A stretch of 64,000 nucleotides of DNA from Pseudomonadota bacterium (GTDB lineage: Bacteria; Pseudomonadota; Gammaproteobacteria; Xanthomonadales; Rhodanobacteraceae), in assembly GCA_021827205.1 (NCBI GenBank), contig JAKAWV010000002.1, positions 122,027 through 186,026 on the forward strand. Direction: 5' to 3'. Position 1 is the stretch's first letter, and each line of letters starts with the position of its first letter. The notes beneath the pieces are model-generated. The model made no database searches, was not told where the DNA came from, and was given only the letters and a program-made list of their open reading frames with translations. Shown here piece by piece: positions 2,375-38,993 of the stretch. Position numbers and translations under genes: made by a program.

Positions 2375-3343
2375 ATGTCCATGCACATCCCGCATCATGA
2401 TCGCCGCCTGGCGCGCAATGTTCTGATCGCGCTGGCGGCGTGCGCGCTCGTACTCGTACTGCCGCGCGCGCGCGCCACGCCGGCGCCGGCCGATGCGCAT
2501 CCAGTGCCGATCAACATCACTCGTCCGCTGGCGGCGGATGGCACCGTCAGCATCGACAACGGCGCCGGCAGCATCCAGGTGATCGCCTGGGACAAGCCCG
2601 AAGTGCAGGTCACCGGCCAGCAGCCGGCCGCGGGCAAGCCGCCCGCAATCGAGAGCAGCGCCAGTCGCTTTGCGCTGCGCATCCGCGCCAAGGTCGAGCA
2701 GTGCTGGCTGGGTTTTTCCTGCTCGACCAAACTGCTGCCGGTGCACCTGACCGTGTACGCGCCGCGTGGCGCGCGCCTGGACTTGCACGGCGTCAGCGCC
2801 GACATGCGCGTGCAGGGCATGAACAGCCCGCGCCTCGACGCTGACGGCGTCAGCGGCGATATGACGCTGAGCGACGCGCACTTCGCGGTAGCGCGGCTGC
2901 ATTCGGTCAGCGGTGACATGCGTTTGAACGCGGTCATCGGCCGGCTGGACGCCGATAACGTGTCCGGTGACGTGCGCGGCGCGATGCTGGCGTGCGGCAG
3001 CGTGCGCGCCACCACGGTGTCGGGCGATATCAGCGTGGGCTGCGCGCGGGTGCGCGAGGCTGCGCTGAAAAGCGTGTCCGGCGATGTGCAGTTGAGTCTG
3101 AGCGCGCTGGCGCCTGCGGGCGCGGTGAGCCTGAACTCGGTCAGCGGCGATGCGCGGCTGAGCGTTCCGGCCGGCGTTTCGGCGCGGCTCGATCTCGGCA
3201 GCCTCAGCGGCAGCATCGGCGGGGCGCTGCCGGCCGGCGTGACCGTGCAGAAGCACAGCGTCAGTGGCCGCTTCGGCAGCGGCGACGGCAGTCTCCGCGT
3301 GCAGACCGTGTCGGGTGATATCCATCTGCAGCAAGGCGGCTGA
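2375..3343 (+). CDS. secreted DUF4097-type beta-repeat protein
   Basis: About 322 residues with a signal peptide (hydrophobic stretch near residues 14-29, then RARA). The body is a run of about ten short repeats around the core VSGD, at roughly 18-20-residue intervals (for example GVSGDMTL, SVSGDMRL, NVSGDVRG, TVSGDISV, SVSGDVQL, TVSGDIHL). This is the pattern of DUF4097/DUF4098 right-handed beta-solenoid proteins. A good ribosome-binding site (AAGGAG, 2362-2367) lies 7 bases before the ATG. It is 53 bp behind the anti-sigma gene and is probably the third gene of that operon, so likely an envelope component or sensor controlled by the ECF factor. Molecular function is unknown. Confidence 0.82.
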   Translation: MSMHIPHHDRRLARNVLIALAACALVLVLPRARATPAPADAHPVPINITRPLAADGTVSIDNGAGSIQVIAWDKPEVQVTGQQPAAGKPPAIESSASRFALRIRAKVEQCWLGFSCSTKLLPVHLTVYAPRGARLDLHGVSADMRVQGMNSPRLDADGVSGDMTLSDAHFAVARLHSVSGDMRLNAVIGRLDADNVSGDVRGAMLACGSVRATTVSGDISVGCARVREAALKSVSGDVQLSLSALAPAGAVSLNSVSGDARLSVPAGVSARLDLGSLSGSIGGALPAGVTVQKHSVSGRFGSGDGSLRVQTVSGDIHLQQGG

Positions 3344-3383
3344 GCGCATGGGCGCGGGCCGCGCACGGCCCACGCCGACTGCA

Positions 3384-5531
3384 TCACAGGCTGAGCTTGA
3401 AGCCCGCGTACCAGGTGCGGCCCAGGGCGGGCTCGATGCCGTAGGTCCACACCCGCGAGTAGTACACGCGGTTGAACACGTTGGACACGCCGCCCAGCAA
3501 CTCGACGCGCGGCGTGAGGTTCCAGTCGGCAGCGAAATCCCACACCGAGTACGCCGGAATCAGCGCCGGCAGCAGCACGGTGCCGCCCACGCCGGGCTGG
3601 TCCTGGGCGCTGTCCTGCCAGTACTGCGAGGAGGAGAACACGCCGGTGAACGCCACGCGGTAGTGACCGTCGCGGCGCCAGGTGACGCCGGCCTTGGCCA
3701 GATGGCGCGGCGAGTACGCCGGCGGCTTGCCGACCTGGTTGGGGATCGCGCTGGCCACGAAGCGCGCGTGCAGCAATTGCAGATTGACGAACGCCTCAAG
3801 ATGTTCGCCCCCGGCGGCGCCGTGCAGGAAATCGTAGGCCAACTCGCCCTCGAAGCCCTCGTTGTGCGTGTCGCCGCTGTTCTGCTCGATCGACACGATC
3901 GGACTGAGGTTGATGGTCTCGATGCGGTTGTGGAAATCCATCCAGAACACGCTGGCGTCGTAGAACAGGCCATCGACCGGCGTGCCGTGCACGCCTAACT
4001 CGTAGGACAGCACCTTCTGCACCGCCGGTGCCGTGCCGGGGATGATGTTGGCGTGCGGCGAGCCGATGTCGAAGTAGCGCACCGGGCGCCAGCCGGTGGA
4101 GACGTTGAAGTAGGTCTCGTTGAGGTGACCATGGTCGAAAAAGTCGTTGCCGATGCCGAGGCCGAACAAGGGTACCGTGCGCGAGACCGTGGTGTTCAGC
4201 AGCGGCCGCGACAGATTGGGCGGACGCACGGTCTCGTACACGCTGACCTTTTCGTGATCGAGCCGCAGCGAGGGCACGATGTGCCAGCGATGCCCCGGGC
4301 CGAAGCGAAACAGGCTGCCGGCGAACACCGAGGCGTAGTCGGAATGCCGCCCCTGCACCAGCGTGGGCACGCCGCCGGTGGCATCGCGCGGCGCCAGCAG
4401 GTTGGTGTAGTTGGCGCCGCGCAGCGGCGCGTCGGAGTGGTACAGCACGGTGCCGAAGGTCAGTGTGTCGCCAGGGCCGAAGTCGTGGCGCAGGCGCAGG
4501 TCGGTGCCGACGTAGCGGAAGCGCGCGTCCTGGATGTTGGTGACGGTGGGCTGCGGCTGCGGCGGCACCGCCGGGTTGGCCACGCGCTGGGTCAGCTCGG
4601 AATCACCCACCCAGGCCTTGCCGTAGAAGCGCCAGTGGTCGCCGAACCGCTGTTCGTGGGTCAGCACGGCGACGTTGCGGTCGGCCCACTCGCGGTTGGC
4701 CGGCGTGGTGGTTAGGTCGGGATTGGCCGCCCATTGCGCGTAGGTGAGGCGTCCGGCGTCGTTGGACGCGGCGTCGTACAGATGCAGGGCCAGACCCCAC
4801 CGCGAGGTCGCGCTGGGCGTCCACAGCAGGTCGGCATCCAGTCCCTTGACCTCGTAGCCGCTGTTGGCGCGCGGCCCGTCGCTGCGGTTGAGCCAGCCGG
4901 CCACGCGCCAGGCGACGTCGCCGCGGCTGCCCTTGACCACGTTGTAGGTCTGCCAGCCGCCGTGGCTGCCGATCATCTGCTCGGTGCTGGCGCCGAAGGG
5001 CTGGCCGGCGACCGCGCCCTTGGACACGAAGTTGATCACCGGCGCCGGCTCCGGCCCGTACAGCAGGCTGTTGCCGCCGCGGATCACCTGGATTTCGCGG
5101 ATGCCCTGCAACGGCGGCTGGTAGTACAGCGTGGGGAAGCCGATCCAGTCCAGTTCGGTGGGAATGCCATCCTGCAGCACGAGCACGTACTCGGACTCCT
5201 GCGGATTGCCCAGCCCGCGGTAGGTGAGATTCACGCGCAGCGGATCCTGCTCCTGCGAGACGATGATGCCGGGCGTGCGCACGAACAGCTGGGTGAGATT
5301 GTCCTGCGCCACGGTCGGGATCTGATCCATGCGCGTGATCGTGGTCTTGGTGGTCGCCGTGATCAGTGCGCCGTCCACCTCCGGCATCAGGTATTGCAGC
5401 TTCGGCTTCCAGAATGGCTCGACGCTGTGTTCGACCTCGATCTTGGGCAGCGTCAGCGGCGGCTGGTCGTTGGCGGGCAGTTTGTTCTGGGCGTTGGCCA
5501 GCAGCAAAGGCAAGGCAGCAAGTGCGAGCAT
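3384..5531 (-). CDS. TonB-dependent outer-membrane receptor (FecA-like)
   Basis: About 715 residues with a short signal peptide (LALAALPLLLANA). The plug domain follows: VAQDNLTQLFVRTPGIIV, then LQDGIPTELDWIGFPTLYY and IREIQVIRGGNSLLYGPEPAPVINFVSK. The remainder is beta-barrel strands ending in WYAGFKLSL. Such receptors import ferric chelates, vitamins or sugars using energy passed from TonB-ExbBD. The plug resembles iron-dicitrate/siderophore receptors, but the substrate cannot be read from the sequence. There is no adjacent regulator or transporter, and no N-terminal signalling extension, so it is not a transducer of the FecA-FecR type. Confidence 0.88.
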   Translation of the reverse strand: MLALAALPLLLANAQNKLPANDQPPLTLPKIEVEHSVEPFWKPKLQYLMPEVDGALITATTKTTITRMDQIPTVAQDNLTQLFVRTPGIIVSQEQDPLRVNLTYRGLGNPQESEYVLVLQDGIPTELDWIGFPTLYYQPPLQGIREIQVIRGGNSLLYGPEPAPVINFVSKGAVAGQPFGASTEQMIGSHGGWQTYNVVKGSRGDVAWRVAGWLNRSDGPRANSGYEVKGLDADLLWTPSATSRWGLALHLYDAASNDAGRLTYAQWAANPDLTTTPANREWADRNVAVLTHEQRFGDHWRFYGKAWVGDSELTQRVANPAVPPQPQPTVTNIQDARFRYVGTDLRLRHDFGPGDTLTFGTVLYHSDAPLRGANYTNLLAPRDATGGVPTLVQGRHSDYASVFAGSLFRFGPGHRWHIVPSLRLDHEKVSVYETVRPPNLSRPLLNTTVSRTVPLFGLGIGNDFFDHGHLNETYFNVSTGWRPVRYFDIGSPHANIIPGTAPAVQKVLSYELGVHGTPVDGLFYDASVFWMDFHNRIETINLSPIVSIEQNSGDTHNEGFEGELAYDFLHGAAGGEHLEAFVNLQLLHARFVASAIPNQVGKPPAYSPRHLAKAGVTWRRDGHYRVAFTGVFSSSQYWQDSAQDQPGVGGTVLLPALIPAYSVWDFAADWNLTPRVELLGGVSNVFNRVYYSRVWTYGIEPALGRTWYAGFKLSL

Positions 5532-33235: not shown

Positions 33236-33448
33236 TCAGCGCGGCGGCTTGGGATCGTCGTGATCCTGATGCTCGCGCCAGACGCGCAGCGCACCGCGCA
33301 GCATCAGCGTCTGCCGCTCGAAGCGCTGGCAGGCGCGGCAGGTGAGGATGTGCACGCGGATCGCCAGGCGCTGGTATACGGGCAGGGCGCGGTCCTCGCG
33401 CGCCAGCAGCAGGTGGGTGACATCGCGGCAAGTGTTAGGGATTTTCAT
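33236..33448 (-). CDS. small zinc-finger anti-sigma factor
   Basis: 70 residues. It has the zf-HC2/ZAS pattern: C7 followed by HILTCRAC (H33-xxx-C37-xx-C40), with a LLLAREDRALPVYQRLAIRVHI helix between. No transmembrane segment, so it is cytoplasmic or acts through a partner. Its ATG overlaps the stop of the sigma gene by 4 bp. It should bind and hold the upstream ECF factor until oxidation or metal binding alters its zinc site; the trigger is inference. Confidence 0.85.
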   Translation of the reverse strand: MKIPNTCRDVTHLLLAREDRALPVYQRLAIRVHILTCRACQRFERQTLMLRGALRVWREHQDHDDPKPPR

Positions 33449-34038
33449 CGCGCGTGCGGGGTGAACCAGCGGATCTGCAGGCATTCGCGCAGGCGCAAGC
33501 GCGCGCGATGCAGCATCACCCACAGATTGGTCGGAGCAATGCCCAGTTCCCGACAGATCGCGCTACTGTCCAGTTGCAGCCATTCGCGCATCAAGAACAC
33601 GCGACCCTGCTTGTTCGGCAGATATTCCAGACAGGCTTCAAGCACGCTGAAAAACTGTTCGCGCTGCAGCTCGGCGCAGGGGTCGGTCCATTCATCGGGC
33701 AACTCGCGGAAGTGACCGTCCTGCTTGAACAGCAGGTGTTCCAATTCGTTCTCGTCGTCATCGGCAGCCGCGGGCGCGGTCGGCTCACGCATGTGTTGGC
33801 GCAACTGATCGAGCACCTTGTGCTTGAGGATGCCGACGATCCAGGTCTTCAGTTGCGAGGTGCGGTTGAAACGCTGCGCGCCCTGCAGCACCGCGAGCAC
33901 GGTTTCCGACACCGCGTCCTCGGCCCAGGCGTGATTGCGCAATTGCAATTGCGCCAGACGCAGCAGGGTCGGGCGCAGCGCAGCGAGGCAGCGGCCCAGC
34001 CCCTGCGGATCGATACTGGCCTGCGGCGCGGTGCTCAT
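33445..34038 (-). CDS. ECF sigma factor linked to bufferin operon
   Basis: 197 residues. Region 2 is seen in HAWAEDAVSETVLAVLQGAQRFNRTSQLKTWIVGILKHKVLDQLRQ, and region 4 in LEYLPNKQGRVFLMREWLQLDSSAICRELGIAPTNLWVMLHRARLRLRECL. An insertion of about 45 residues (DDDENELEHLLF...) separates them, as in ECF factors that sit next to DUF2282/DUF692 operons. It overlaps the zinc-finger anti-sigma gene and is divergent from the DUF2282 gene, so it is the likely activator of that operon. Confidence 0.9.
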   Translation of the reverse strand: MSTAPQASIDPQGLGRCLAALRPTLLRLAQLQLRNHAWAEDAVSETVLAVLQGAQRFNRTSQLKTWIVGILKHKVLDQLRQHMREPTAPAAADDDENELEHLLFKQDGHFRELPDEWTDPCAELQREQFFSVLEACLEYLPNKQGRVFLMREWLQLDSSAICRELGIAPTNLWVMLHRARLRLRECLQIRWFTPHAR

Positions 34039-34357
34039 GACGCGTTTACGGCGATGGGGCGGGTCGTGTGCATGGGCGGCGCAAGGAACCCGGTGCGTGC
34101 CGCGGCCAAGGCGCGATGACGCATTCTTTCACCAAGTGTGCAGTTTGAGGAACTGCCCCAGAACAAGGATGTTGCGCCGCGACGTGCATGCGCGCGCGTG
34201 CCACGCTAGAAGCGGCATGGCTGGACGGTGCCAATTTGCTTACAAACCTCGACGGAACGACTGGTTTTGCAATTTGATCGAGTACCGGGCCGGCAGCGGC
34301 CACATGACCGCTTCAACTCATTAGGGCTTTCATCATTTTTGATCGAGGGCGTCCATC
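34039..34357. promoter_or_regulatory. divergent control region between ECF sigma gene and bufferin operon
   Basis: 319 bp without a credible gene. It should carry promoters for both directions and is less GC-rich than its surroundings from about 34225 to 34350. A GGAACG at 34254-34259 could be an ECF-type -35 for the rightward operon, but I cannot identify a matching -10 with confidence. The DUF2282 start has GAGG about 10 bases upstream. Confidence 0.4.
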
Positions 34358-34693
34358 ATGAACAAGTATCAGATCCTCAGCGTCGCCGCGGCATCCCTGA
34401 TTGCTGCCGGCGGCTTGGCTGCCGTACCCGCAGCGCACGCAGCAAGCATGGAAAAGTGCTTCGGCATCGCCACCGCCGGCCACAACGACTGTGCCGGTAT
34501 CTCCGGCCTGCACTCCTGCAAGGGGCAGGCCACGGCCTATTACATCCCCGGCGACTTCCGTGTGGTGCCCACCGGAACCTGTGAAAAAATGGGTGGGGTG
34601 GACATGGCGCAGGCCAAGGCGATCATGAATAAGACGTCCAAGGTCGTCGCGTTCGAGGCCAAGGTGCAAGCGAAAGCCAACTGGCAAGGCTGA
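34358..34693 (+). CDS. bufA1: DUF2282 bufferin-type precursor peptide (BufA1-like)
   Basis: 111 residues. A Sec signal peptide (residues 1-28, ending AHA) precedes a mature part with four cysteines, C34, C45, C54 and C75, in [23 protein letters not shown] and GTCEKMGG. This is the conserved pattern of DUF2282 proteins, shown in bufferin systems to be ribosomal peptides whose cysteines are converted to thiooxazoles by an MNIO enzyme and which bind copper in the periplasm. The C-terminal 30 residues are Lys/Ala-rich ([26 protein letters not shown]). First gene of a three-gene operon; the next gene begins 124 bp later. Confidence 0.88.
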
Positions 34694-34817
34694 GCATCGG
34701 TCACTCCGGGTTGCGCGCGCCATTCCAAACGGCGCCGCCACGACCAAGGAGTGAACGGTGTTGTCACGCTGCGGGGGCCGGCAAGGCCCGGTTCCGTCGC
34801 TGCGCGGGAGAATTCGC

Positions 34818-35741
34818 ATGCTGATCGAATCCACGGCGCGCGCCGGCATAGGCCTGCGCCAGCCGCATTACCGCGAGTTCCGCGCGCGTCGGCCCGCGGT
34901 CGGTTTCGTCGAAGTGCATTCCGAGAATTTCTTCAACCCGCATGACGCCGCGGCGCAGGTGCTGGCCGCGGTGCGCGCCGAGTACGCCGTGAGCCTGCAC
35001 GGCGTAGGACTGGCGCTGGGCTCGGCCTGTGGGCTGGACGATGAGCATCTGGATCGCTTGACTGCGCTGGTCGCGCGCACCGATCCGCTGCGCGTGTCGG
35101 ATCACGCCTGTTTCGCGCGCGCATCCTGGGCCGGGCGTGGCACGGTGCACGCCAACGATTTGCTGCCGGTGGCGTTCACGCGCGGCTCGCTGGCGGTGTT
35201 CGTCGCCAACGTGCAGCATGTGCAGGAGCGCCTGCGGCGCCCGATCCTGGTGGAAAATTTGAGTGCCTATCTGGATTTCGCCGAGCGTGATTTCAGCGAG
35301 CCCGGATTCTTCGCCGAGCTGGCGCGGCGCAGCGGCTGCGGCCTGCTGCTGGATGTGAACAATCTGATGGTCAACGCGCTCAATGCCGGTGCGGACGATG
35401 CGCAGGCGGCCGTGTGCGCGTGGCTGGACGAACTGGCGCGCCGCGCGCCGCCCGACCTGGTCGGCGAAATCCATCTCGCTGGGCACAGCCGCCAGCACGA
35501 ACTGGTCATCGACGATCATTCGTGCGTGGTCTCGGCGCCGGTGTGGAGTGCCTATGCGCATGCGTTGCGCTGTTTCGGCCCGCGGCCCACGCTGATCGAA
35601 TGGGACACCAGCCTACCGACACTCGACGTGCTGCTGGACGAAGCCGCGCACGCGCAGGACTTGCTTGATGCCGAGGCGCACGCGCGCCGCGCGGGCAACG
35701 CCATGCGCGCAACGCACGCCGCGGCGGAGTGTGCGTCGTGA
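34818..35741 (+). CDS. bufB: DUF692 / MNIO-family peptide-modifying enzyme (BufB-like)
   Basis: 307 residues, TIM-barrel multinuclear non-haem iron oxidase. Family segments: AGIGLRQPHYREF, VGFVEVHSENFF, VSLHGVGLALGS, RVSDHACF, VENLSAYL, CGLLLDVNNLMVNALNAGAD, GEIHLAGHS and TLIEWDTSLPTLDVLL. Candidate metal ligands H61, H96, E146, D179, N181, H219, H223 and the E of LIEWD are present. Two positions differ from the consensus I remember: SEH is SDH (D95), and the His of the NHG motif is Ala (N189-A190-G191). It probably oxidises cysteines of the DUF2282 peptide. Its stop overlaps the next gene (GTGA). Confidence 0.9.
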   Translation: MLIESTARAGIGLRQPHYREFRARRPAVGFVEVHSENFFNPHDAAAQVLAAVRAEYAVSLHGVGLALGSACGLDDEHLDRLTALVARTDPLRVSDHACFARASWAGRGTVHANDLLPVAFTRGSLAVFVANVQHVQERLRRPILVENLSAYLDFAERDFSEPGFFAELARRSGCGLLLDVNNLMVNALNAGADDAQAAVCAWLDELARRAPPDLVGEIHLAGHSRQHELVIDDHSCVVSAPVWSAYAHALRCFGPRPTLIEWDTSLPTLDVLLDEAAHAQDLLDAEAHARRAGNAMRATHAAAECAS

Positions 35742-36589
35742 CCACGCGCCACGCGCACGCCGCGGCGCGTGGCGCCAGCGGCCCCGCCGCGCGGCGCGAA
35801 GCCGCGCGCCAGCAGGCGTTGCTGCGCGTATTGTTCGCCGCGCAGCCGGCGCCTGCGCCGCTGCCCGAGTTGGGTGTGCGGCAGCGCGATCAGCGCTGGA
35901 GCGCGGGCCTGGCGGCGTATCGCGGCAACGGATTGGAGCACGCCGTCGCCGCGCTGCGCGCGCAGTTCCCCACCGTGTTGGCGATGCTGGGCGAGGCCCC
36001 GTTCGATGCGCTGTGCGCGCGCTATTGGTATGCGTACCCGCCGCAACAGGGTGATCTGGCGCGCATCGGTGCCGAGTTCCCCGTGTGCATCGCCGCGCAG
36101 GACGAGCTGCGACCCTGGCCGTGGTTGGCGGACAGCGCGCGTCTCGATCGCGCGCGCTGGGAAGTGCTGTTCGAGGCGCCATCGCCCCTCGCCGTGCAGG
36201 ATTTGCAGCGTCTGGCCGAGTGTGATTCGGCGTGCCTGCAACTGTGCCTCGCGCCGGGCACGCGCCTGCTGGAGACACGCTGGCCGGTGTTCCGGCTATG
36301 GCAGTTGCATCAGGCACCGAACATCGACGGCGCCGCGCTGCGCGCCGCGCTGCGACAGCCCGCCGCGCCGCTGTGGATCTGGCGCGCGGACATGCAGGCG
36401 CAGTGTCGCGAAATATCCGCGAATGAAGTCGACTGGCTGCGCGCGCTCGCGACCGGCACGCGCCTCGATCAGGCGCTGGATGCCGCGGCCGCGGACTTCG
36501 ATGTCGCTGCGTGGCTGCAAGCCGCCGTGCAACACGGCTGGATCGACGGCGTGCGTGCGTGGCCAGAGGCCAGCGCCACATCCCGCTGA
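35738..36589 (+). CDS. bufC: DUF2063 MNIO partner protein (BufC-like)
   Basis: About 283 residues from a GTG that overlaps the bufB stop. The N-terminal DUF2063 domain is seen in AGLAAYRGNGLEHAVAALRAQFPTVLAMLGEAPFDALCARYWYAYPPQQGDL and IGAEFPVCIAAQ. The C-terminal half (residues 140-260) is a winged-helix-like region with WEVLFEAPSPLAVQDLQRL. In characterised relatives this partner recruits the precursor to the MNIO enzyme. The Ala/Arg-rich first 25 residues are unusual, so a later start is possible. Confidence 0.85.
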   Translation: MTTRHAHAAARGASGPAARREAARQQALLRVLFAAQPAPAPLPELGVRQRDQRWSAGLAAYRGNGLEHAVAALRAQFPTVLAMLGEAPFDALCARYWYAYPPQQGDLARIGAEFPVCIAAQDELRPWPWLADSARLDRARWEVLFEAPSPLAVQDLQRLAECDSACLQLCLAPGTRLLETRWPVFRLWQLHQAPNIDGAALRAALRQPAAPLWIWRADMQAQCREISANEVDWLRALATGTRLDQALDAAAADFDVAAWLQAAVQHGWIDGVRAWPEASATSR

Positions 36590-36931
36590 TCCGCAGCGTG
36601 GAGAGCGCCCCTGAACACCCCGGCATCCGCGGTCGCCACCGCACGTAATCTCGACGCCGTGCCTTGTGCCCGGCGCGTGCTGGAGCGCGTCCCCGAATGA
36701 TTGCAGGCGTCGGGGCAGTGCGGGCGGTGCGTGCGCGTACTGGGATTGTTCGCCGTCAACGCTTGCGGGCGCTGCTGTTCTAGCTGCATGCGCTGCAGCC
36801 GCCAGCGATCATGTTCCCCTTCTCCGAGGCATGCCCCCGCCGATGGTGGCGCTGTGGGGGCCGGGACGCTGGTCGGTGGATTCGTGGCGGGCGCGTCGGC
36901 GACGCGCGGCGTGACGCAGATCGAACTGCGT
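36590..36931. other. gene-poor spacer after bufferin operon
   Basis: 342 bp. No open frame here looks like a real protein. On the plus strand around 36837-36920 a frame encodes a glycine-zipper-like run (GGAVGAGTLVGGFVAGASA), but the frame continues antisense into the next gene and has no sensible start. It may be a remnant of a small membrane or bacteriocin-like gene, or chance. No clear terminator seen. Confidence 0.4.
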
Positions 36932-37278: not shown

Positions 37279-37905
37279 TCAACTCGCCCTGCGTTTCTTG
37301 GGCAGATGCCCGACCAGAAACTCCATCTGGTCGGCGAGGATGTTGCGGTTGCACAGGATCAGGTGCTCGACCCAACTGGGACGGTAGGGCACGGCGAGCA
37401 GCGGCATGGACGCCTGCTGCGGGGTGCGGTTGCCCTTGCGCAGATTGCAGGCGACGCAGGCAGTCACCACGTTTTCCCACGCGTCGCGGCCGCCGCGTGA
37501 GGTGGGAATGACGTGATCGCGGGTCAGCTCGCCGCGTCCGCCATGGCTGCCGCAGTACAGGCAAATGTGGCGGTCGCGCGCGAACAGCGCGGCGTTGGTC
37601 AGCGCTGGCGATGGATCGAGCGCGTGGCTGCGGCAGTGGCCGGTGCTGGCGATGATGGGGTGCAACTCGATGATGCTCTGCCGTCCCGAGGCGCGGTTGT
37701 GGCCGCCGTGCACAGTGAGGCACGGCGTGCCCAGCGTCCACGCCACGGCGTCGCGCACGTACAGGCATACCGCATCCTGCCAACTGATCCAGTCGAGGAT
37801 GCGCCCGCCGGCGTCCAGCGCCAGCACGCGCGTACCCGCCGAGGGGCTTGGAAAACCGCCCGCAACATCCGGAACATCGGCGCGCAGGTCGATGACCTCG
37901 TGCAT
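37279..37905 (-). CDS. stand-alone HNH endonuclease
   Basis: 208 residues. The HNH core is CLYCGSHGGRGELTRDHVIPTSRGGRDAWENVVTACVACNLRKGNRTP, with zinc-binding CxxC pairs flanking the DHxxP and N-containing segments. The N-terminal part (VLALDAGGRILDWISWQDAVCLYVRDAVA) is the one usual for the widespread single-domain HNH family of proteobacteria. The ATG at 37905 follows GGAGGAAGG. It is probably a housekeeping nuclease of unknown target rather than part of a mobile element, since no methylase or intron is near. Confidence 0.88.
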   Translation of the reverse strand: MHEVIDLRADVPDVAGGFPSPSAGTRVLALDAGGRILDWISWQDAVCLYVRDAVAWTLGTPCLTVHGGHNRASGRQSIIELHPIIASTGHCRSHALDPSPALTNAALFARDRHICLYCGSHGGRGELTRDHVIPTSRGGRDAWENVVTACVACNLRKGNRTPQQASMPLLAVPYRPSWVEHLILCNRNILADQMEFLVGHLPKKRRAS

Positions 37906-38036
37906 GCCTTCCTCCGTTACTTGGACAACACCGGCGACGTGCAGGCGCACGCCGCATCCGCGGCAGGATAAGCCAAGCGCGTGGCAAACGGGTAATGAGC
38001 TCAGGAGAGGCTATTGCAGGCGTAAAGCAGTGCGCG

Positions 38037-38993
38037 TCAGCGCGCGCTGGCCAGGCGGCGCTCGGCGCGCGCGGCGATCAGCAGCAGAAACACGATGGCA
38101 TAGATGCTGGCCGTGCCCAGCACATCGCCCTTGTTGCCGGTGAAACCGGCGCCGTACGGCCCGCCCATGCCTTCGGCCGTGCTCCACAGCACCAGGCTGT
38201 ACAGAACGCCCAGCGGCATCGCCAGATCGATCAGCACACCCGTGATCAGCGACAGCGCCAGCGCGCTTTCCGCCAGCGCGGCGAAGATGGCGAAGTTCTC
38301 CGTGCCGACGCGCTGGATGATGTGCAGCACGAAGCCGATGTACGCCGCCACCCAGTGCGGCTGCCCGGCCATCGATTGCGCCAGAAAACTGCCCGCGCCA
38401 TGCAGGAACGCCGGCTGCCATTTCCAGTACGCGTCGAAGGCCCACAGCAGCCCGAACAGCACGCGCGCCAGGGTGAACTTCCAGCGCGCCGGCACCGTCA
38501 CCGGACCATTCCGGAACGCCGCCAGCGGCCGCCAGCCGTGCGTCAGCAGCACCAGTGCAAAGCCCAGTGCATAGACGATGGCCGTGCCCGGATCAGTAGC
38601 ACCCGTGGTGTACGGCCCGCCCAGCCCGCCCACCGTGCTCCACAGCCACAGGTTGTAGAACAAGCCGACCCAGGCGAGGCGATGCAACTGCCAGCCGCTG
38701 AGCAGGGAGAACGCCAGCAGCGCCTCCAACGCCACCATCATGCTGACCACGATGCCGACGCCAAGATTGGTCACCAGCGCGGCCATGGCGTGCCCGTAAG
38801 CCATCAGCCAAACCGGCTGCCCCGGCGCCCAATCGGCCGCGATCATGGCCACGAAGTGCTCGCGATAAGCCGGATCCAGATGCAGCAGCAGATTGACCAG
38901 GCACACCGCGCCGAACAGCAGCCGCGCCAGCCCCAGCGCCCATTCGATGCGAGTGCGATTGTCCAGCAGGTACGGCAGATTGAGGGTGCGCAT
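38037..38993 (-). CDS. tandemly duplicated DoxX/DoxD-like membrane protein
   Basis: 318 residues in two homologous halves of about 150, each with four membrane helices. Half one has LARLLFGAVCL ... LWLWSTVGGLGGPYTTGATDPG; half two has LARVLFGLLWA ... LVLWSTAEGMGGPYGAGFTGNKGD. The WxxAEGxGGPYG motif is that of the DoxD small subunit of thiosulfate:quinone oxidoreductase and the wider DoxX family. Function is unknown; possibilities are a quinone-linked redox role or a membrane partner of the nearby bufferin operon, whose relatives often carry a DoxX gene. Confidence 0.78.
   Translation of the reverse strand: MRTLNLPYLLDNRTRIEWALGLARLLFGAVCLVNLLLHLDPAYREHFVAMIAADWAPGQPVWLMAYGHAMAALVTNLGVGIVVSMMVALEALLAFSLLSGWQLHRLAWVGLFYNLWLWSTVGGLGGPYTTGATDPGTAIVYALGFALVLLTHGWRPLAAFRNGPVTVPARWKFTLARVLFGLLWAFDAYWKWQPAFLHGAGSFLAQSMAGQPHWVAAYIGFVLHIIQRVGTENFAIFAALAESALALSLITGVLIDLAMPLGVLYSLVLWSTAEGMGGPYGAGFTGNKGDVLGTASIYAIVFLLLIAARAERRLASAR

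Follow-up and report, generated by a model that had tools for sequence, protein, structure and literature searches.

A probable bufferin (Buf1) gene cluster with a tail-bearing precursor, divergent from an ECF sigma and zinc-binding anti-sigma pair, in a Rhodanobacteraceae genome

A stretch of 64,000 nucleotides from a Pseudomonadota bacterium of the family Rhodanobacteraceae (contig JAKAWV010000002.1, positions 122,027 to 186,026; hereafter the window) carries five genes that are best explained as a bufferin (Buf1) gene cluster of a distinct, tail-bearing subtype, a reading to which we assign a probability of about 0.7. Three forward-strand genes, bufA, bufB and bufC, encode a DUF2282 precursor peptide, an MNIO (DUF692) enzyme and its DUF2063 partner, and they diverge from a reverse-strand pair encoding an extracytoplasmic function (ECF) sigma factor and a zinc-binding (ZAS) anti-sigma factor. 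An earlier note, made from the letters alone, had proposed a bufferin-type locus facing such a pair. All five genes lie where it placed them and their Pfam matches exceed the curated cut-offs, the hidden Markov model searches that it had suggested (DUF2282, MNIO as MbnB_TglH_ChrH, and DUF2063) all matched above cut-off when run, and the two overlaps that it had described, ATGA between the sigma stop and the anti-sigma start and GTGA between the MNIO and DUF2063 genes, are borne out in the sequence. Its assignment as a whole agrees with the protein families, synteny, the BufC fold and a promoter-like element, with the reservation that the MNIO scores under the cut-off for the name BufB. The locus lies on contig C28 of a 43-contig, 3.04 Mb genome, and the comparison within the genus comprised 13 genomes.

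The precursor matches PF10048 (DUF2282) at 73.4 bits against a cut-off of 22.4. Its N-terminus, read by eye only, has a lysine at position 3, a hydrophobic stretch and the motif AHA-A, consistent with a Sec signal peptide of about residues 1-28, and its four cysteines (residues 34, 45, 54 and 75) are invariant across 28 alignment rows. The reading frame is not a chance one, because the ratio of nonsynonymous to synonymous substitution rates (dN/dS) in its core is about 0.06 against the counterpart in genome G071; judged by its codons, the core is under strong purifying selection. Beyond the last cysteine, this BufA continues for 36 residues. Of 96 DUF2282 places listed, 60 had longer flanks fetched. 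In the fetched loci, 88 precursors were found and divided by the text pattern C[FY]G...NDC, which may have missed odd members, into 34 tail-type proteins (this BufA, 8 more in the genus and 25 Thiomonas or other proteobacterial records) and 54 others; five loci on the same contigs as those of G108, G129, G056, G025 and G119 were left out of this count. After the last cysteine the tail-type proteins have 33-36 residues in 33 cases and 55 in one, as compared to 8-24 residues in 53 of the others and 79 in one.

The tail, with a consensus of roughly GGLDMxQAKAxLxxPAKTKAFEAxMAKxM, is a real, clade-specific feature. It is predicted at low confidence to be helical (residues 83-91 and 93-108), with an AlphaFold pLDDT of 56-65 over residues 81-110 in a model of the whole precursor that is itself poor (mean pLDDT 50.6). 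The earlier note was right to single out the tail, which it called lysine-rich, but its suggestion of metal sensing found no sign in its favor, and a metal-binding segment was rejected as well, the tail of this BufA having neither cysteine nor histidine. An amphipathic or membrane-binding tail is also unsupported, because five tails gave low helical moments, 0.11-0.21. Two Thiomonas-type loci (L131, 3547-3822; L135, 568-843) have tandem second precursors of 92 residues with a short C-terminus, directly before the tail-type precursor.

BufB matches PF05114 (MbnB_TglH_ChrH) at 290.2 bits (cut-off 25) and keeps all 20 of the His, Asp, Glu or Asn columns that at least 95% of 87 other MNIOs share. 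Its probable start codon is the ATG at 34818 and not the GTG at 34758 to which the open frame extends; the N-termini of relatives and a plausible ribosome-binding site favor this choice. BufC matches PF09836 at 55.6 bits (cut-off 27.2) and scores 15.6 with the HvfC model NF050145, under that model's cut-off of 142. Its AlphaFold model is of high confidence (pLDDT 90.4), and the sole matches in the PDB at E ≤ 0.001 are TglHI (8hci, 8hi7) and NGO1945 (3dee), with E-values of 7e-6 to 1e-4 and TM-scores of 0.48-0.55 by query length. The modeled fold is as expected for a PME-type 1 partner, a DUF2063 protein with an RRE fold, as reported (PMC12452194). Exactly one MNIO match was found in each of 11 of the 13 genus genomes (seven tail-type, four tail-less) and none in the other two. 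The two kinds were not found together in any genus genome, as if one had replaced the other, an observation that is provisional because 6 of the 13 genomes are less than 90% complete.

The sigma factor matches the Pfam domains Sigma70_r2 (46.6 bits, cut-off 24) and r4_2 (44.1 bits, cut-off 25.7), as well as TIGR02943 (214.8 bits, cut-off 162.2) and NF009173 (267.1, cut-off 255), and is the sole protein of the genome above the TIGR02943 cut-off. The anti-sigma factor matches zf-HC2 PF13490 (23.3 bits, cut-off 22.2) and NF052368 (56.6, cut-off 50). Its motif, read from the sequence, is C7-x25-H33-x3-C37-x2-C40, in which the Cys-to-His distance (26) and HxxxCxxC are identical to those reported for neisserial MseR (PMC2893595); the protein is taken as soluble, and no transmembrane segment was seen by eye. 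In another genus of the family, at L076 and L077, about 1.3-1.4 kb separate a tail-less DUF2282 gene from a related sigma/anti-sigma pair (120-132 bits).

A promoter-like element recurs at related loci. Alignment of the regions upstream of nine tail-type genes of the genus revealed a single block of strong conservation, GTGTAAGGAAT and its variants, with CGAC 12-13 bases downstream of it. The resulting genus pattern, GTAAGGA-N14/15-CGAC, has 22 matches in the 13 genomes. Nine of them belong to sigma/buf loci, and one of these nine is at the G108 MNIO locus that has no precursor. With the neisserial consensus and the Thiomonas-type loci already known, the pattern was widened to GT[A/C]AGG-N15/16-CGAC, and in this form it has 70 strict matches in total in 1.41 Mb of both-strand sequence. 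Of the 34 tail-type genes, 30 have the widened element within 450 bp upstream, as compared to only 1 of the 54 tail-less ones, a tandem neighbor in L131; the four tail-type genes that miss it are this bufA and three orphans (L148-L150). The distance from element to start codon is about 70 to 400 bp. The block GTAAGGATT of L040 and L047 is an exact fit to the meningococcal sigmaE -35 consensus. The doxX genes provided a check that was not used in deriving the pattern (33 loci, 28 distinct): where doxX runs opposite to bufABC, the element is found within 300 bp upstream of doxX in all 10 loci, and at the remaining, co-directional loci, in none of 23 (18 distinct). Upstream of the sigma gene, no same-strand element was found within 450 bp in any of 31 sigma rows (21 distinct loci), and the circuit therefore looks non-autoregulated. 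A search for a wider regulon with a second pattern, GTAAGGWW-N13/14-CGTC, gave 2 matches in the 13 genomes and none in this one. Further targets were sought among the 13 of the 22 strict matches that lack this locus' five proteins nearby; reading frames were viewed at five of these sites (L101, L109, L110, L111 and L118), no genes were named and none was taken as a target.

Several observations weigh against a tail-bearing bufferin cluster under the control of this element. BufB scores 303.9 with the NCBI BufB model NF050167, 6 bits under a cut-off of 310 that serves for naming and has not been published as a defining trait; all seven tail-type MNIOs scanned, from the genus and Thiomonas-type loci, score 290-307, as compared to 385.6 for one scanned tail-less congener. 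Tails evolve fast: between this BufA and G071, dN/dS is about 0.33 in the tail versus 0.06 in the core, and dN is near or above dS in some pairs. Estimated from about 34 codons per pair and thus noisy, tail dN and dS are 0.24 and 0.72 (this bufA-G071a), 0.25 and 0.29 (this bufA-C14, a second precursor of the same genome), 0.39 and 0.37 (G071a-G119) and 0.11 and 0.04 (G056-G129), with dN low relative to dS elsewhere (C14-G071b, 0.11 and 0.87; C14-G108, 0.13 and 0.45; G025-G119, 0.07 and 0.50). The tail keeps its length and consensus, but by these estimates it is unevenly constrained. A reversed-pattern control gave 44 matches in the genus, commoner than the 22 of the pattern itself; only the position of the genus matches is telling, not their number. 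The figure of 30 in 34 is partly circular, because the pattern was drawn from nine of the same loci and then widened, and the loci share ancestry, so that element counts are not independent events. The copy at this locus, GCAAGG...CGGC, departs from the strict pattern by two substitutions and is not a match to it, the orphans L148-L150 lack the element, and no intact doxX follows bufC, only a remnant.

A mechanism for the cluster can be drawn from work on Caulobacter Buf1 and captophorin and from the neisserial and Haemophilus sigma systems, as reported (PMC12452194, PMC12668002, PMC2893595, PMC7907618, PMC3511200). While BufA is still in the cytoplasm, BufB and BufC would oxidise its two inner cysteines to thiooxazoles, and the exported peptide would then buffer copper in the periplasm, as with characterised bufferins; copper binding and cysteine oxidation are thus ascribed to this peptide by analogy with characterised relatives. 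The TIGR02943 sigma would be held by the soluble zinc/thiol anti-sigma factor until metal or thiol-oxidising stress disturbed the zinc site and released it. Freed sigma would then start transcription at GTMAGG-N15/16-CGAC, which, from its position, appears to head bufA, any doxX that is transcribed on its own, and the MNIO gene at a locus that bufA has left. The second precursor of this genome, on contig C14, would be modified in trans by the single BufBC pair.

Conceivable, though less likely than not, is that the cluster responds in the first place not to copper but to oxidative, thiol or reactive-chlorine stress (or to gold or other metals), with metal buffering as one output of a redox regulon. 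The anti-sigma factor is a ZAS protein of the RsrA/MseR type, the relative RpoE2/HrsE system is reported to rise with HOCl and H2O2 (PMC7907618), and Caulobacter sigmaF is reported to control bufferin operons together with a YedY gene under dichromate (PMC3511200). The orphan tail-type precursors of L148-L150 (at about 3040-5314), which come from the same metagenome-assembled genomes as L126, L129 and L128, have a divergent response regulator on one side and an msrP-type gene on the other, the family of the latter being confirmed in L148 and L149. This arrangement hints at another route of control, by which bufferins would be linked to methionine-sulfoxide repair. However, the reported function of Buf1 is copper chelation (PMC12452194), and meningococcal sigmaE expression is reported to be unaltered by oxidants (PMC2893595).

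Three features of this genome go beyond the earlier note: a decayed doxX, the two substitutions in the promoter copy and a second precursor elsewhere. doxX is named in the core of bufferin biosynthetic gene clusters (PMC12452194), and doxX frames were present in 33 of 46 other loci scanned. Here the last 29 codons are recognisable (36825-36911) and an N-terminal piece, found by eye, is in another frame; a search of the genome with a relative's DoxX matched this remnant only, at 62% identity over residues 127-155. The second DUF2282 precursor, at the end of contig C14, has the same kind of tail and an upstream element that fits the strict pattern. Beside it, in the opposite direction, begins a second sigma copy, which shows 69% identity over the 35 residues encoded before the contig ends. 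The genome search found only one MNIO despite the two precursors. Directly after the C14 precursor is an IS110-type transposase fragment (L004, 8589-9832), in the place taken by doxX at the orphan precursors of G071 and G108. In G108, the MNIO locus is without a precursor and the sole precursor found adjoins doxX on another contig. By its sequence, the unit is in flux in this genome, with doxX decayed, the promoter copy deviating and a second precursor on another contig, and the local copy may be weakly expressed or decaying. That the whole locus is decaying, with the C14 copy as working precursor and this bufA little expressed, seems unlikely to us, although the deviant element beside a strict one at C14, the doxX remnant, the vacant precursor position in related G108 and tails that differ more than cores all speak for it. 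The core of bufA is strongly constrained, the sigma, anti-sigma, MNIO and partner frames are all intact, and the C14 copy itself sits at a contig end next to a transposase fragment. Improbable, finally, is that the element serves another DNA-binding regulator and is not the promoter used by the adjacent sigma. It is a predicted promoter and its distance to the start codon varies, but in its two blocks, their spacing and their letters it is similar to the neisserial sigmaE promoter as reported (PMC2893595), and it points to bufA, doxX or MNIO in the loci checked and to the sigma gene in 0 of 21 distinct loci.

The tail-bearing cluster is not confined to this genus. A scan of a genome collection with the tail-type alignment gave 34 loci, comprising four tail-less outliers, five contigs from genus genomes that had been sampled before (that of G108 is titled 'Rhodanobacter sp.') and 25 others. 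Among these, six record titles name Thiomonas (in four), Burkholderiaceae or Betaproteobacteria, and the other 19 read simply 'Proteobacteria bacterium', with no class given. Many of these 25 presumably derive from acid mine drainage or sulfidic caves, judging in part by isolate names. In an MNIO tree of 87 rows, from which the partial duplicate L108 was dropped, the seven tail-type enzymes of the genus cluster with 14 Thiomonas-type enzymes at 97% support in the Shimodaira-Hasegawa-like approximate likelihood ratio test (SH-aLRT). Topologies were compared by the approximately unbiased (AU) test on 60 rows (27 of the 87 dropped; L076 kept but outside the forced group), with groups that were named after the first tree was known. 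Forcing the seven together with 28 tail-less enzymes of their own family was rejected (p-AU 3e-7), and horizontal transfer is therefore likely. Holding 20 Thiomonas-type enzymes as their own clade was not rejected (p-AU 0.35); the unit was probably exchanged, in either direction, with Thiomonas-like bacteria. Among plasmid records, 65 carry a related sigma, all below 60% identity. Of three such regions that were opened, two bear no annotation; the third, from Sphingopyxis, has genes for oxidoreductases, with none annotated as bufferin nearby. Plasmid records matching a Thiomonas tail-type precursor numbered 67, but no match spanned 80% or more of the precursor's length.

A broader view of tail-type bufferins is more speculative. 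They may form a separate, horizontally mobile RiPP (ribosomally synthesized and post-translationally modified peptide) system in which one sigma/anti-sigma pair and one BufBC pair govern precursors genome-wide, the promoter tagging a gene for the regulon and the helical tail tagging its product for BufBC as a follower-type recognition element. We hold this doubtful. Such portable tags are suggested because the sole precursor and the sole enzyme of G108 are on different contigs and because one enzyme serves a genome with two precursors here.

Table 1. Features of the locus, in window positions
Feature	Position	Strand	Basis
Zinc-binding (ZAS) anti-sigma factor, 70 aa	33236-33448	-	PF13490, NF052368
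ECF sigma, TIGR02943/PRK12520 family, 197 aa	33445-34038	-	TIGR02943, NF009173
Promoter-like element position, GCAAGG-N16-CGGC	34081-34106	+	Alignment of 9 upstream regions
bufA, DUF2282 precursor, 111 aa	34358-34693	+	PF10048
bufA C-terminal tail, residues 76-111	34583-34690	+	Tail length, alignment, AlphaFold
bufB, MNIO (DUF692) enzyme	34818-35741	+	PF05114
bufC, DUF2063 partner (PME-type 1), GTG start	35738-36589	+	PF09836
Decayed doxX remnant	~36613-36914	+	Own-genome DoxX search, three-frame reading

Two reverse-strand genes lie beyond the remnant. The first (37279-37950) encodes an HNH endonuclease-type protein (HNH_5, 59.9 bits) with partial Cas9d/IscB model matches below cut-offs. The second (38037-38993), 1.4 kb from bufC, encodes a 318-aa membrane protein of two similar halves that looks DoxX/DoxD-like by eye and has no Pfam or NCBIfam match at E ≤ 0.1.

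The components of this cluster are of known kinds. Their combination, a tailed Buf1 with a TIGR02943 sigma, a soluble ZAS anti-sigma, a deduced promoter common to scattered bufA, doxX and MNIO genes and likely transfer, was not found described in the available text of the bufferin and MNIO literature, in which few subscription papers are represented. The element is simple and testable, and natural rearrangements (doxX alone, bufA moved away) serve as controls. The tail is a defined piece for learning how an MNIO complex recognises a Sec-targeted substrate, a question treated as open in the text consulted (PMC12452194). Horizontal spread, which is likely, points to a copper-handling unit common to distant proteobacteria.

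Buf1 clusters have been reported with ECF sigma factors (PMC12452194). The Buf1 cluster of Caulobacter vibrioides (CC3252-CC3257, sigmaF) has, as here, a DUF2282 precursor, an MNIO, a DUF2063 partner and an adjacent ECF sigma, and its promoter, GTAACC-N16-CGAA, has the same two-block layout (PMC3511200). The cluster described here differs in its sigma, which is of the TIGR02943 family and is paired with a soluble ZAS anti-sigma where Caulobacter has the six-transmembrane DUF1109 protein CC3252, in its 33-36 residue precursor tail, and in having only a remnant of doxX. In Cupriavidus metallidurans, gigPABT, called a bufferin gene cluster (PMC12452194), likewise forms a divergon with an ECF sigma/anti-sigma pair (rpoQ-rsqA), and the gig operon is induced by copper and gold (PMC10304878, PMC11022561). 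In the former of these two reports, RsqA is predicted to be membrane-bound, no gig promoter is identified and the sigma's role and promoter are described as unproven (PMC10304878). Here, the anti-sigma is a soluble 70-aa ZAS protein and a promoter-like element is deduced.

We take the neisserial operon NMB2140-NMB2145 to hold MNIO and DUF2063 genes, an assumption supported by gonococcal NGO1945, which adjoins an MNIO and fold-matches BufC. NGO1945 is reported as a PME1 protein beside the MNIO, and the gonococcal product is of the EGKCG kind, not DUF2282 as here (PMC12668002). The neisserial sigmaE/MseR system pairs, as here, an ECF sigma with a ZAS anti-sigma and controls this six-gene operon from the promoter GTMAGBWTT-N12-13-CGTCTAAH (PMC2893595), of which the element of our locus' relatives is a close variant with CGAC in place of CGTC in the -10 block, the copy at this locus deviating further. 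There, the sigma gene is within the operon and autoregulated, and msrA/msrB is also controlled, whereas here the sigma gene is divergent. Haemophilus RpoE2/HrsE is, like the pair described here, an ECF sigma with a ZAS anti-sigma (67 aa) and very limited control of its own gene, but its reported targets are msrAB and a drug/metabolite (DMT) transporter, where the target here would be a bufferin (PMC7907618).

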